Shown piece by piece: positions 5,731 to 40,304 of a DNA stretch of 64,000 bases (positions are counted from its first letter, which is position 1; every line of letters begins with the position of its first letter). Position numbers and translations under genes: made by a program. Location: the NCBI RefSeq assembly GCF_003369445.1, contig NZ_QRCU01000015.1, forward strand, positions 1 through 64,000, read 5' to 3'. The stretch comes from Arthrobacter silvisoli. Its GTDB lineage: Bacteria > Actinomycetota > Actinomycetes > Actinomycetales > Micrococcaceae. Below the pieces are notes generated by a model that saw only the letters and a program-made list of their open reading frames with translations, did no database searches and was not told the DNA's origin.

Positions 5731-6650
5731 TTGTAGATCTTCCAGATACCACCACCTCGAAGATCTCCAAGAAGATCACCTCGCTGCGCGAGCAGGGCGG
5801 CGTCATCGCCCTGGGCCGGGTGCTGACCCTCGTGGTCGTCACCAAGTCCGGCCTGGAGGAAGAAGCCATCGAGGCGGCCAACGAGGCCAGCCGCGAACAC
5901 CCCTGCCGGATCATCGTGCTGGCCGACGCCGGAGCCGAGGCCCCGGACCGGCTGGACGCCCAGATCCGTGTGGGCGGCGATGCCGGTGCCTCCGAAGTCA
6001 TCGTGTTGCGCGGTTTCGGTTCGTTGGCCAAGGAGAGCGAATCGCTCGTGGCCGGACTGCTCCTGCCGGACGCTCCGATCGTGGCCTGGTGGCCGCACGG
6101 GGCCCCGGACAACGCCTGCGAAACCTCGATCGGCCGGATCTCGCACCGCCGCATCACGGATTCGGCCAACGAGCCTGATCCGGCTGCGGCGCTGGAACGC
6201 ATCCGCACCACGTACCGGGCCGGCGACACCGACCTGGCCTGGACCCGCCTGACGAACTGGCGCCTGCAGCTCGCCGCGGCACTGGACCAGGTGGACGACT
6301 CCCCTGTCACGGCCATCACCGTGGAAGGCGCCTCGGATTCACCCAGCACCCTGCTGCTCGCTGCCTGGCTGACCCTCTTCCTCGACGCTCCGGTGAAGAT
6401 CGTGGAAGACCCTGCCGGCACCGGCATCCGCCGGGTGCTGCTGAGCCGTGCCACCGGCGACGTCCAGCTGCACCGTCCGGGACTCACCGTGGCCGAGCTG
6501 ACCCAGCCCGGCCAGCCGGCGCAGCGCATTTCGCTGCCTCGCCGCAGCCTGCGCGATTGCCTCGCCGAAGAATTGCGCCGGCTCGATCCGGACGACGTCT
6601 TCGGCGAAGTGATTACTATGGGACTGCCCCGCACCGAAAGCAAGGAGTAG
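5727..6650 (+). CDS. opcA: glucose-6-phosphate dehydrogenase assembly protein OpcA
   Basis: OpcA, 307 residues, a non-catalytic partner needed for full glucose-6-phosphate dehydrogenase activity in actinobacteria and cyanobacteria. Recognised by its position (ATGA overlap with zwf) and family blocks: the N-terminal MIVDLPDTTTSKISKKI, the central PIVAWWPHGAPDNAC segment, a WTRLTNWR motif and an RRSLRDCLAEELRRLDPDD tail. No signal peptide or membrane helix is seen. The pgl start lies 6 nt downstream. The family is also well known as a fixed neighbour of zwf, so the call is strong, although no active-site residues can be used to test it. Confidence 0.95.
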   Translation: MIVDLPDTTTSKISKKITSLREQGGVIALGRVLTLVVVTKSGLEEEAIEAANEASREHPCRIIVLADAGAEAPDRLDAQIRVGGDAGASEVIVLRGFGSLAKESESLVAGLLLPDAPIVAWWPHGAPDNACETSIGRISHRRITDSANEPDPAAALERIRTTYRAGDTDLAWTRLTNWRLQLAAALDQVDDSPVTAITVEGASDSPSTLLLAAWLTLFLDAPVKIVEDPAGTGIRRVLLSRATGDVQLHRPGLTVAELTQPGQPAQRISLPRRSLRDCLAEELRRLDPDDVFGEVITMGLPRTESKE

Positions 6651-6656
6651 CGTTCC

Positions 6657-7475
6657 GTGACCGTTGAGCCCAGAGTAAGCATCCACCCCGACTCCACCGT
6701 CCTGATGGCCGCGATTGCGGCCCGCCTCATCACCAAGTTGGTCGATGTGCAGGACAAGCACGGGGAAGCCACTGTCGTCCTGACCGGCGGCACCGTGGGA
6801 ATCGGAACCCTCAAGGCCGTGGCGGCCTCTCCTGCGGCCCCGGCCGTGGACTGGTCCCGGGTCAACCTCTGGTGGGGTGACGAGCGGTTCGTGGCCAAGG
6901 ACAGCCCGGACCGCAACACCCGCCAGGCACGCGAGGCACTGCTGTCCGGCCTGCCGCTGGATCCGGAGCGCGTCCACGAGCCCGGGTCCTCGGACGAATT
7001 CGCCTCGGCTGAGGACGCCGCTGCGGACTACGCTGCCCGGTTGAAGGCCGCCGCCGAAGCCGAGCACGCTGCCGACACCTCGGACAACCGCCCGGCGGAT
7101 GCCGGTGAGCTGCCGCGCTTCGACGTGCTGCTGCTCGGCGTCGGTCCCGATGCGCACATCGCCTCGCTCTTCCCCGAGCAGGCGGGCATCAGGGTCCACG
7201 ACCGCACGGTGGTGGGCGTGGAAAACTCCCCCAAGCCGCCGCCGTCGCGCATTTCACTGACGCTGCCGGCAATCAACTCGGCGCAGGAGATCTGGATGGT
7301 TGTCGCAGGCGAGGACAAGGCCGGCGCGGTCGGCCTGGCCCTCGCAGGGGCGAACCCGGTGCAGGTCCCGGCAGCGGGACCGCACGGCCGCTCACGCACC
7401 CTGTGGCTGATCGACGAGAACGCGGCGTCCCGCGTTCCGCAGCAGCTAGTCCGCAAGGATCCCGCGGGAGCGTAA
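6657..7475 (+). CDS. pgl: 6-phosphogluconolactonase
   Basis: 6-phosphogluconolactonase (DevB/SOL family), 272 residues. It hydrolyses the lactone made by zwf to 6-phosphogluconate. Visible are LTGGTVG (about residues 42-48), the WWGDERFV segment typical of the family and LLGVGPDAHIASLFP (about 155-169). The canonical motif has GHD-type GxDGHxASLFP, so the Gly-to-Ala change beside the histidine is a minor deviation. The start is a GTG 6 nt after opcA, with AAGGAG in the opcA end as ribosome-binding site. It is the last gene of the pentose-phosphate run. Its 3' end overlaps the convergent rbpA by 30 nt. Confidence 0.95.
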   Translation: MTVEPRVSIHPDSTVLMAAIAARLITKLVDVQDKHGEATVVLTGGTVGIGTLKAVAASPAAPAVDWSRVNLWWGDERFVAKDSPDRNTRQAREALLSGLPLDPERVHEPGSSDEFASAEDAAADYAARLKAAAEAEHAADTSDNRPADAGELPRFDVLLLGVGPDAHIASLFPEQAGIRVHDRTVVGVENSPKPPPSRISLTLPAINSAQEIWMVVAGEDKAGAVGLALAGANPVQVPAAGPHGRSRTLWLIDENAASRVPQQLVRKDPAGA

Positions 7476-7823
7476 CCTCTTCAGCGCTCCAGCCAGGACA
7501 CGTTCGGCGTCCTGGCTGGAGCGCCTTTCTTTAACGTAATCGAGGTGGCTCTTGAAGACCTCGTCATCCTGGCGTTCGCAGGGTGCTATGCCGGGCTCCC
7601 GGGCGGCCACGAGGCCGCATTTCGGGCAGTCCCAGTTCGCCGGGATCTGGTCATCCGGCAGCTTAAGAAAAACAAGCCGCGTCTCGTGTCCATTGGCGCA
7701 CCAATAAGGGACACGAATACGCGGCAAGTTTTCGCCGACAGTGCTGTCGGACTCGTTTTTGGGACCTGTACCGGCGGTCACGCCGGCCCTGGTGCCACGG
7801 AATCCTTGGCTGCCATGAACCAT
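7446..7823 (-). CDS. rbpA: RNA polymerase-binding protein RbpA
   Basis: RbpA, 125 residues, an actinobacterial transcription factor that binds the principal sigma factor and RNA polymerase and stabilises promoter complexes. The Micrococcaceae form is visible: an N-terminal MVHGSQGFRGTRAGVTAGTG arm, a zinc-ribbon-like core with YWCANGHE and WDCPKCG, and the C-terminal sigma-interaction helix around HLDYVKERRS. The ATG at 7823 is preferred over an upstream in-frame TTG because GAGGAG lies 7 nt before it. The 3' part of the gene is unusual: on the opposite strand it encodes the terminator-like hairpin for pgl. Confidence 0.93.
   Translation of the reverse strand: MVHGSQGFRGTRAGVTAGTGPKNESDSTVGENLPRIRVPYWCANGHETRLVFLKLPDDQIPANWDCPKCGLVAAREPGIAPCERQDDEVFKSHLDYVKERRSSQDAERVLAGALKRLRSRGILAD
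7484..7532 (+). terminator. intrinsic terminator of the pgl operon, inside rbpA
   Basis: A perfect 16-bp stem (arms 7484-7499 and 7509-7524, 9-nt loop) followed by CTTTCTTT. It starts 8 nt after the pgl stop and has the layout of a Rho-independent terminator on the plus strand. The whole element lies within the rbpA coding region, on its complementary strand. Confidence 0.85.
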
Positions 7824-7940
7824 CGTCAAGCTCCTCGAGAGTCGGCTGCATCGCTTTAAGCCACGCAGCCAAGTCTAATGCCGGGAGCCCGACGGCGGCA
7901 GTGCCGGTTTCCGCGTCAGGAGCCTGGGGAGGCCAGGAGG

Positions 7941-8198
7941 TCAGGAATCTCCGCCGGAAGTGAAGCGCATGATCAGGCCGAGGCCGATGATCACCACGCC
8001 CCAGGTGCAGCCAAGCACGATGGTGAAGCGGTTGAGGTTCCGCTCCGCGACGCCCGAGGAGCTGAGGCCGGAGCTCATGCCGCCACCGAACATGTCGGAA
8101 AGGCCACCGCCGCGGCCCTTGTGCAGCAGGATGAGCAGGGTCAGCAGAAGGCTGGTGATGCCCAGCAGGATCTGCAGGATTACTTGAAGAACGTCCAC
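7941..8198 (-). CDS. secG: preprotein translocase subunit SecG
   Basis: SecG, 85 residues, the small accessory subunit of the SecYEG channel. It has two predicted membrane helices (about residues 5-25 and 57-77) flanking a glycine-rich loop with LLHKGRGGGLSDMFGGG, the family hallmark. A VAERNLNR segment precedes the second helix. It lies downstream of tpiA on the same strand, the standard actinobacterial gap-pgk-tpiA-secG order. About 40 nt separate it from tpiA, so co-transcription with tpiA is likely. Confidence 0.96.
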   Translation of the reverse strand: MDVLQVILQILLGITSLLLTLLILLHKGRGGGLSDMFGGGMSSGLSSSGVAERNLNRFTIVLGCTWGVVIIGLGLIMRFTSGGDS

Positions 8199-8238
8199 GA
8201 CGGCCTTTCAGGAGTGCGGAAAGCGGGAGCTACCAGGC

Positions 8239-9054
8239 CTAGGCCGCGGTGATGTGGCTCTCGAACCTGACAATGTTAGCAAACTCGGCCGGGTCGAGGC
8301 TGGCGCCACCCACAAGGAGGCCGTCCACGTCGGCTTCGGCCATGATCGCTGCAGCGTTGTTGGCCTTGACGGAGCCGCCGTAGAGGAGGCGGGTTCCGGC
8401 GGCCACGGCGTCGTCGAACAAGGAAGCCAGTTCCGCACGGATGGCGGCACACATTTCCTGGGCGTCTTCCGGCCCTGCGACCTCGCCGGTACCGATGGCC
8501 CAGACGGGTTCGTAGGCCACGACGAGTTCCTTGGCCTGCTCCGCCGTGAGGCCTTCGACGCCGGCGCGCAGCTGGGCGAGGGTGTGCTCCACGTGGGTAC
8601 CGGCCTGGCGGATGTCAAGGCCTTCGCCAACGCACAGGACCGGGGTGACCTCGTGGCGGAAGGCGGCCTTCACCTTGGCGTTGAGGACCTCGTCCGTCTC
8701 GTTGTGGATGGTGCGGCGTTCACTGTGGCCCACGAGGACGTAGGAGCAGCCGAGCTTGTTGAGGAACTGGCCGGAGATGTCCCCGGTGTAGGCGCCGGAG
8801 TCGAACTGGGACAGGTCCTGACCACCGTAGACAACCTTGAGTTCGTCGCCCTGGACGAGGGTCTGGACGCCACGGAGATCGGTGAACGGCGGGAAGACAG
8901 CAACCTCCACGCGGCTGTAGTCGTGCTTGGCGTCGGACAGGGTCCAGGCAAGCTTCTGCAGCAGGGTGATGCCCTGGACGTGGTCCATGTTCATCTTCCA
9001 GTTGCCGGCGATGAACGGCGTGCGGACGAAGTTTCCGTTGGCAGAGGTTGTCAC
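8239..9054 (-). CDS. tpiA: triosephosphate isomerase
   Basis: Triosephosphate isomerase, 271 residues, a TIM barrel interconverting dihydroxyacetone phosphate and glyceraldehyde-3-phosphate. Catalytic residues are present: the lysine in AGNWKMN (about 19), the histidine in VGHSERR (about 110), and the glutamate in [11 protein letters not shown] (about 183). Phosphate-binding LYGGSVK and GLLVGGASL follow. The start is a GTG with GGAG 5 nt before it. The gene follows pgk after a 98-nt gap that contains a strong hairpin, so its expression may be partly uncoupled from gap-pgk. Confidence 0.97.
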
Positions 9055-9066
9055 GTGTGCTCCAAA

Positions 9067-9124
9067 GAAGTAGTGAAAGGGAAACCGGCAAGGTGCTGCT
9101 CCGAAAGGAGCGGCACCTTGCCGG
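9067..9124 (-). terminator. hairpin with U-rich tail between pgk and tpiA
   Basis: An 18-bp stem (arms 9085-9102 and 9107-9124) with one G-U pair, closed by a four-base loop. It is followed on the minus strand by TTTCCCTTTC. It sits between the pgk stop and the tpiA start and could end or attenuate gap-pgk transcripts. Confidence 0.72.
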
Positions 9125-11552: not shown

Positions 11553-11596
11553 ACGTTCAAGAAAGCCCGCCCCTGCAACTGCAGGGGCGGGCTTTC
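11553..11596 (-). terminator. intrinsic terminator downstream of sodA
   Basis: A perfect 17-bp stem (arms 11561-11577 and 11580-11596) with a 2-nt centre. On the minus strand it ends in CTTTC followed by TTGAAC. It lies 66 nt beyond the sodA stop and insulates sodA from the gap promoter region. Confidence 0.85.
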
Positions 11597-40261: not shown

Positions 40262-40304
40262 CGTTAAACGGAAGGCGCCCCCTCCAAAGGGAGGGGGCGC
40301 CTTC
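40262..40304 (-). terminator. intrinsic terminator of rpsA
   Basis: A perfect 15-bp GC-rich stem (40271-40285 and 40290-40304) with a 4-nt loop, followed on the minus strand by CGTTTAACG. It lies 37 nt past the rpsA stop and can also stop plus-strand reading from the yigZ gene. Confidence 0.85.

Follow-up and report, generated by a model that had tools for sequence, protein, structure and literature searches.

A conserved hairpin past the pgl stop, written in the codons of a convergent rbpA paralog, as a probable transcription-end signal of the pgl-side RNA

How might converging runs of central-metabolism genes avoid collision when no intergenic space separates them? The junction of pgl and an rbpA paralog in Arthrobacter silvisoli provides a test bed for this question. 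It lies in the window, by which we mean the whole stretch of DNA analysed here, 64,000 nucleotides long. On the plus strand, Pfam searches outline a run of transketolase, transaldolase, pgi-like, zwf, opcA and pgl genes; the third of these is without a Pfam match at 1e-10, and we presume its name. The minus strand carries gap, pgk, tpiA and secG, followed by a gene of the rbpA family. Judged from gene order and strand, these runs may be tkt-to-pgl and gap-to-rbpA operons, and their last coding sequences converge tail to tail. RbpA residues are numbered with TTG at 7829 as residue 1, which makes ATG at 7823 residue 3. The features of the junction are as follows.

6657 to 7475, plus strand: pgl, last of the pentose-phosphate gene run (PF01182, 232.5 bits; TIGR01198, 218.7 bits), with its TAA stop at 7473-7475
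7446 to 7829, minus strand: the rbpA paralog (PF13397, 95.3 bits), with a likely start ATG at 7823
7484 to 7499, plus strand: 5' arm of the hairpin, antisense of rbpA residues 111-115 plus the first base of 116
7500 to 7508, plus strand: hairpin loop, 9 nt in the window, with synonymous divergence 0.75 of expectation
7509 to 7524, plus strand: 3' arm of the hairpin, antisense of rbpA residues 103-107 plus the third base of 102
7525 to 7532, plus strand: T-rich tail CTTTCTTT, antisense of rbpA codons Lys100-Glu101-Arg102, with AAA at Lys100 in 186 of 190 genomes
7530 to 7538, plus strand: nonamer TTTAACGTA, antisense of the Tyr98-Val99-Lys100 codons (synonymous z -3.8, -4.9 and -5.3)

An earlier note on this DNA had described a 30-nt tail-to-tail overlap of the two genes and a perfect 16-bp stem that begins 8 nt downstream of the pgl stop and is contained entirely in rbpA codons. 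Both descriptions hold: the gene ends at 7475 and 7446 give the overlap, and 7484-7499 pairs with 7509-7524 through arms that are 100% complementary, with all stem bases coding for rbpA residues 102-116. In many relatives additional pairs narrow the loop to 3-7 nt. The segment 7470-7540 folds at -39.9 kcal/mol on the plus strand (z -7.5 against dinucleotide shuffles) and at -43.6 kcal/mol on the minus strand (z -9.1). The hairpin is missing from the list of a simple terminator scan, probably because that scan permits loops of 3-8 nt only, and a search of 6500-9000 for known RNA families in Rfam returned no match at the gathering score. Comparable perfect hairpins of 15-17 bp occur elsewhere in the window (40271-40304 and 11561-11596); therefore it is conservation, and not presence, that decides.

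Two of the window's other hairpins, perfect or near-perfect and of 17-18 bp, lie between a gene we take to be sodA-like and gap (11561-11596) and between pgk and tpiA (9085-9124), and are likely ordinary intergenic terminators or processing sites. A perfect 14-bp hairpin within the pgi-like coding sequence (2857-2891) was taken as a control. All 14 of its pairs form in 2 of 30 genus loci, one of them the window's own, and 8-13 Watson-Crick pairs form in the remaining 28. Because several loci carry a compensated C/G swap, it is not a clean negative control and may be constrained too.

Conservation was assessed at 192 genus loci, reduced to 190 distinct rbpA genes when a motif filter removed L251, whose stem and nonamer are both intact, and L300 was dropped since its fetched stretch reaches a contig end without an rbpA stop; that sequence holds no such stem. 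The stem survey covered 145 distinct regions in which the genes overlap by 30, 48, 84, 4, 20 or 17 nt, and overlaps of 42 nt and below zero were examined separately. A stem of 15-19 bp with at most 2 mismatches is present in 142 of the 145 regions, that is, in all 142 distinct genus regions surveyed; L121, L122 and L126, from other genera, are the regions of this survey without it. The stem starts 8 nt past the pgl stop, except for 9-10 nt in four regions and 34 nt in L254, where the pgl stop sits further upstream, and it is also present in more divergent genomes beyond the 142 surveyed regions. Conservation in close relatives had been set as a test beforehand, and the stem is indeed kept, and co-varies, across the genus.

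Nor does the stem depend on the overlap. The overlap spans 48 nt at 133 of the 190 loci, 30 nt at 35, 42 nt at 3, 84 nt at 2 and 4 nt at 1, and is lacking at 16. As an internal check, the Leu119 codon, antisense of the pgl stop, is CTA or TTA in 175 of 190 genomes, but among the 16 rows that lack the overlap 12 have CTG. A clade of 14 genus genomes (support 0.957), nested among overlapping lineages, has lost the overlap, with 12-110 nt now separating the stops; its stem and nonamer are nearly unchanged, and we conclude that the stem is not a side effect of overlapping genes. L025 and L207, in which the pgl frame stops early, belong to the 16 rows and are counted outside the clade. At L274, L280 and L282 the gap between the stops is filled with repeated TATCCC-type units. 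A separate signal of the rbpA strand within pgl is not called for, because the constrained pgl codons -15 to -1 fall inside the 48-nt overlap that codes for rbpA.

We propose a model whereby the hairpin is probably a functional RNA element of the pgl side: an intrinsic terminator of the tkt-tal-(pgi-like)-zwf-opcA-pgl run that works one way and may be a pause-terminator aided by a factor. In this model, RNA polymerase would exit pgl, the GC-rich stem of 15-19 bp would form a few bases past the stop, and polymerase would stop over the TTTCTTTAAC tail, thereby preventing antisense transcription through rbpA-secG-tpiA-pgk-gap. In the opposite direction, polymerase would meet 1-4 T in the 10 nt after the stem and complete rbpA; the lower number of T on the minus strand suits an element that lets rbpA transcription through. 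That transcripts would end at the hairpin, with what efficiency and with which factors, we infer from sequence. Two hallmarks of intrinsic terminators are found here, a GC-rich stem-loop directly downstream of the last gene and, on the plus strand, the compensatory pairs with G-U allowed that denote selection on RNA.

The sequence that follows the stem accords with a terminator in part. Directly after the stem the plus strand reads CTTTCTTTAA, within the longer stretch CTTTCTTTAACGTA. The 10 nt after the stem hold 3-7 T on the plus strand and 1-4 on the minus strand (1 in 118 of 190 genomes). The commonest plus-strand tails among the 190 are TCTTTCTTTAAC (51), CCGCTCTTTAAC (44) and CCGTTCTTTAAC (44), all T-rich and interrupted, and with CCGCTCTTTAAC the U-tract is weak in that part of the genus. 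An A-tract upstream of the stem, a feature of bidirectional terminators, is absent, given the 1-4 T in 10 on the minus strand; A-tracts are reported, in excerpts of PMC12207403, as virtually absent from Streptomyces terminators, making this a weak criterion in actinobacteria. The nonamer TTTAACGTA stands at these codons in 176 of 190 genus loci versus 0 of 93 outgroup loci, and its constraint extends 6 nt beyond the T run, suggesting that it belongs to the same constrained unit as the stem and that the T run explains it only partly. It occurs once in the 4.35-Mb genome, which does not support its being a general tail motif. A promoter reading of TTTAACGTA / TACGTTAAA, considered by eye, finds no support either: residues 88-95, whose codons would hold a -35 element on the minus strand, are without synonymous constraint. 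Glu101, between the stem and the nonamer, is encoded by GAA in 121 and GAG in 69 of 190 genomes and is not clearly constrained (synonymous z -0.6). The interrupted T run, the loose Glu101 and the nonamer reaching 6 nt further do not fit a plain terminator.

It is here that an alternative finds its footing, to which we assign a small probability. The stem and TTTAACGTA might form a pause or processing element: polymerase would halt there, for example through NusG reading TTCTTT on the non-template strand, or an RNase would be directed to it, and 3' ends would arise in a second step or under some conditions only. Such an element would account for a nonamer that is constrained beyond the T run, unique in the genome and a companion of the stem, and it has precedents: in published excerpts, the NusG of B. 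subtilis acts in pausing where intrinsic terminators present TTNTTT (PMC8060035), and that of M. tuberculosis favours both pausing and termination (PMC10990936). By analogy, factor-aided pausing or termination is plausible. Against it, the GAG codon of Glu101 breaks TTNTTT in 69 of 190 genomes, and the nonamer has no complement of at least 6 nt upstream of the stem with which it could pair.

The evidence on which strand's RNA is selected comes codon by codon. In the stem register, the third codon base of one arm lies opposite the first codon base of the other, so that single synonymous changes can yield a G-U pair on the plus strand (A-C on the minus strand) or the reverse. Across 16 pairs and 190 genomes we count 2779 Watson-Crick pairs, 163 plus-strand G-U, 19 minus-strand G-U and 79 others. 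On trees estimated with FastTree from the same two genes that are analysed here, parsimony places 55 events from Watson-Crick to plus-strand G-U, 15 to minus-strand G-U and 28 to other mismatches, and by a tally of the same output 10 of the 15 fall in the innermost codon pair beside the loop. The pair of residues 105 and 113 is A-T in 75 genomes, G-C in 58, A-C (plus-strand G-U) in 56, G-G in 1 and G-T in 0. Changes between C and T at the third base of Ala113 number 25 on branches with A as the first base of residue 105 and 0 on branches with G (P = 7.5e-5), although the latter state makes up 31.6% of branch length; control C/T changes at residues 36-97 divide 386:194. The 102/116 pair shows the same pattern, with 7 versus 0 changes (P = 0.005). 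These branch-based tests supersede Fisher tests that ignore kinship.

Covariation was tested on 70 of the 166 distinct 63-mers. In these sequences, 26 cells had changed on both sides versus 4.3 in shuffles, a value reached by 0 of 500 shuffles, and when the partner was shifted by 1-3 columns, 26-44% of cells paired instead of 96.8%. Pair types by themselves were no more numerous than in the shuffles (181 of 500). When these 70 sequences are read on the opposite strand, 92.1% of their cells are paired, and the 13 outer pairs are intact in 24 cases versus 67 on the plus strand. Folding energy alone gives a weaker contrast than the pair counts, the plus strand being stabler in 123 of 190 genomes. 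Plus-strand G-U as the main deviation, together with the co-varying pairs, reveals RNA-level selection on the plus strand, and taken together these patterns point to the pgl-side RNA as the molecule that is selected.

This asymmetry disfavours action on the rbpA strand. The earlier note had raised the idea that the same fold acts in the rbpA mRNA, where it could serve as a 3'-end stabiliser or translation-rate element; we regard this as very unlikely and as largely refuted already. The minus-strand fold is slightly stronger in the window (-43.6 versus -39.9 kcal/mol) and folds at least equally well in 67 of 190 genomes, but the outer 13 pairs are complete in 60 of 190 genomes on the minus strand versus 175 on the plus strand, the remaining 130 having at least one minus-strand mismatch and 15 a plus-strand one. 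Moreover, the synonymous options that would give minus-strand G-U (CGT at 103, TCT at 104, GGG at 114 and GCT at 113 opposite G) are used in 0 of 190 genomes, and the T-rich tail is on the plus strand. A role of the DNA itself, as a protein-binding site or cruciform, is extremely improbable for a related reason: the 41-bp near-palindrome does have conserved arms and a conserved flanking nonamer, but a DNA palindrome should tolerate plus-strand G-T and A-C equally, and the events divide 55 versus 15 overall and 53 versus 5 in the 13 outer pairs (tally of the parsimony output). The codon pair nearest the loop, 107/111, frequently fails to pair; like the 15 genomes with a plus-strand mismatch, this speaks against the terminator model.

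Synonymous divergence was measured over 95 phylogenetically independent pairs. The arm codons carry 78 synonymous differences versus 286.6 expected, a ratio of 0.27, compared with 0.88 at residues 116-118 just outside the stem, 0.37 at residues 98-101 and 0.19 in the codons that overlap pgl; none of the 11-codon windows further upstream in rbpA falls below 0.71. The codons that are fixed are often rare in the background. Gly114 has GGA in 189 of 190 genomes, a codon used for 20% of glycines in the preceding part of rbpA and for 14% of those in pgl; Lys100 has AAA in 186 (31% and 13%) and Val99 has GTT in 184 (27% and 17%). The expectation that synonymous sites at the stem would be conserved and would co-vary as base pairs is thus confirmed.

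A null model in which the protein was kept and codons were redrawn from background usage (38,000 draws) reached full pairing of the 13 outer pairs in 0.045% of draws on the plus strand and 0.047% on the minus strand, with a median of 8 of 13 pairs formed, and the median folding energy of the real sequences was equalled by 1 of 1,900 such draws on the plus strand and 4 of 1,900 on the minus strand. At the same codons of 93 outgroup genes, all 13 pairs form in 0; most often 6 of them form, and at most 11 (L123 and L125). The hairpin is not a product of chance. That it should be a by-product of a conserved protein helix and GC-rich codon bias, with no RNA function, is scarcely credible: several genus-invariant residues do yield many pairs from protein constraint alone, as the null median of 8 of 13 attests, but full pairing in 92% of genomes versus 0.045% of shuffles, the fixed rare codons GGA, AAA and GTT, the absence of Gln106 and Gly114 from most outgroup proteins, and the synonymous profile refute it.

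What does the hairpin mean for the protein that faces it? The PF13397 domain places the product in the RbpA family, and a structure model of it matches RbpA chains in RNA polymerase complexes, such as 6edt_J and 8dy7_G (Foldseek E 8.7e-6 to 6edt_J, with TM-scores of 0.35-0.40 on a model that is moderate as a whole, at 72.6). The model has C-terminal helices at 93-100 and 103-119, which are 95-102 and 105-121 in the TTG-based numbering, with pLDDT of about 78-89. M. tuberculosis RbpA is described, in excerpts of PMC9695777, as having an N-terminal tail, a core, a basic linker and a sigma interaction domain. Position 114, within a predicted helix, is Gly in 190 of 190 genus proteins versus Glu in 63 and Gly in 1 of 93 outgroup loci, and position 106 is Gln in 189 of 190 versus Ala in 72 and Gln in 2 of the 93. 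In the stem, Gly114 (GGA) lies opposite Ser104 (TCC) and Gln106 (CAG) opposite Leu112 (CTG). The simplest reading is that an RNA need fixed these two residues in the C-terminal helix of RbpA, Gln106 and Gly114; alternatively, they may go back to common descent combined with selection on the protein. Selection for the hairpin thus appears to have fixed codons and also some amino acids of the facing protein, and the rare codons together with the genus-specific Gln106 and Gly114 support the earlier proposal of a mutual constraint between the hairpin and the RbpA helix.

We speculate, with some reserve, that the stem and TTTAACGTA are a genus-specific termination or pause module that arose in the gene of an RNA-polymerase-binding protein and reshaped its putative sigma-binding helix at Gln106 and Gly114; such a module may be read by a factor and is perhaps tuned to leak. 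If so, the RNA signal of one operon would have dictated amino acids of the opposing one.

The window's genome has two RbpA-family genes, the second (L002, G000:C69:40064-40345) being 35% identical to the pgl-linked one. In a sample of 198 genus genomes, 196 have a match, 192 of them the window-type rbpA and 4 a weak paralog only, and 2 are without a match. In a family sample of 149 genomes, which takes in 31 other genera, a stronger match is found in at least one genome of 6 genera; of the 31, 24 have a weak match only and one has none. The named close relatives are Arthrobacter and Pseudarthrobacter. Genes similar to the pgl-linked rbpA occur in Streptomyces, Kineococcus and Blastococcus, in some cases close to pgl.

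Like intrinsic (Rho-independent) terminators in general, the element combines a GC-rich stem-loop with a T-rich stretch just past the last gene of an operon. Unlike them, it lies wholly inside a conserved coding sequence of the opposite strand, its tail (CTTTCTTTAA) is interrupted and in part of the genus weaker, and an additional conserved nonamer accompanies it. Compensatory evolution of intrinsic terminators in B. cereus is reportedly the subject of Safina et al. 2017, to go by the title; compensatory changes in terminator stems would be common to both cases, whereas here pairs are compensated by way of codons, with amino-acid changes at residue 105 among them. As with bidirectional terminators at convergent genes (Ju et al. 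2019, as cited in PMC8060035 and PMC8269248; their A-tract feature is described in an excerpt of PMC12207403), the hairpin is placed between two convergent units and would limit antisense read-through. It differs from them in having no T run after the stem on the other strand and looks one-directional; since the rbpA coding sequence continues at this point, transcription of that gene should be able to proceed past it. Excludons and overlapping 3' transcripts (PMC7154746, in excerpt) likewise involve convergent operons whose transcripts may overlap in antisense, but the boundary element at pgl/rbpA is itself dual-coded with a protein and would limit such overlap rather than create it.

Convergent-gene terminators, bidirectional terminators and overlapping 3' transcripts are thus known (excerpts of PMC12207403, PMC8269248, PMC7154746 and PMC8745188). 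Our search of full-text literature, which took in few subscription papers and mostly listings, returned no conserved terminator stem in an antisense coding sequence with codon-level evidence. The pgl/rbpA junction offers a natural case, across 190 genomes of soil bacteria of the Arthrobacter group, in which what is probably the end signal of a transcript shares its base pairs with a protein helix encoded on the opposite strand, and in which codon-by-codon evidence shows which strand's RNA is selected. It also carries a warning: such elements can be overlooked or misread by terminator finders restricted to intergenic regions and by analyses that treat synonymous changes as free of selection.

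Outside the genus, pgl is convergent within 200 nt at 30 of 93 outgroup loci, and 10 of these 30 have an intergenic hairpin of at least 14 bp with at most 1 mismatch (L048, L052, L054, L055, L060, L061, L062, L092, L101 and L118). At L123 and L125, both of another genus, the 11 of 13 outer pairs that form at codons matching 102-116 are possibly a partial or precursor stem. In L131, which belongs to a further genus of the family, an imperfect hairpin of 25 bp with 2 mismatches lies inside the rbpA coding sequence, 27 nt past the pgl stop; differently placed as it is, this hairpin is possibly an independent case.
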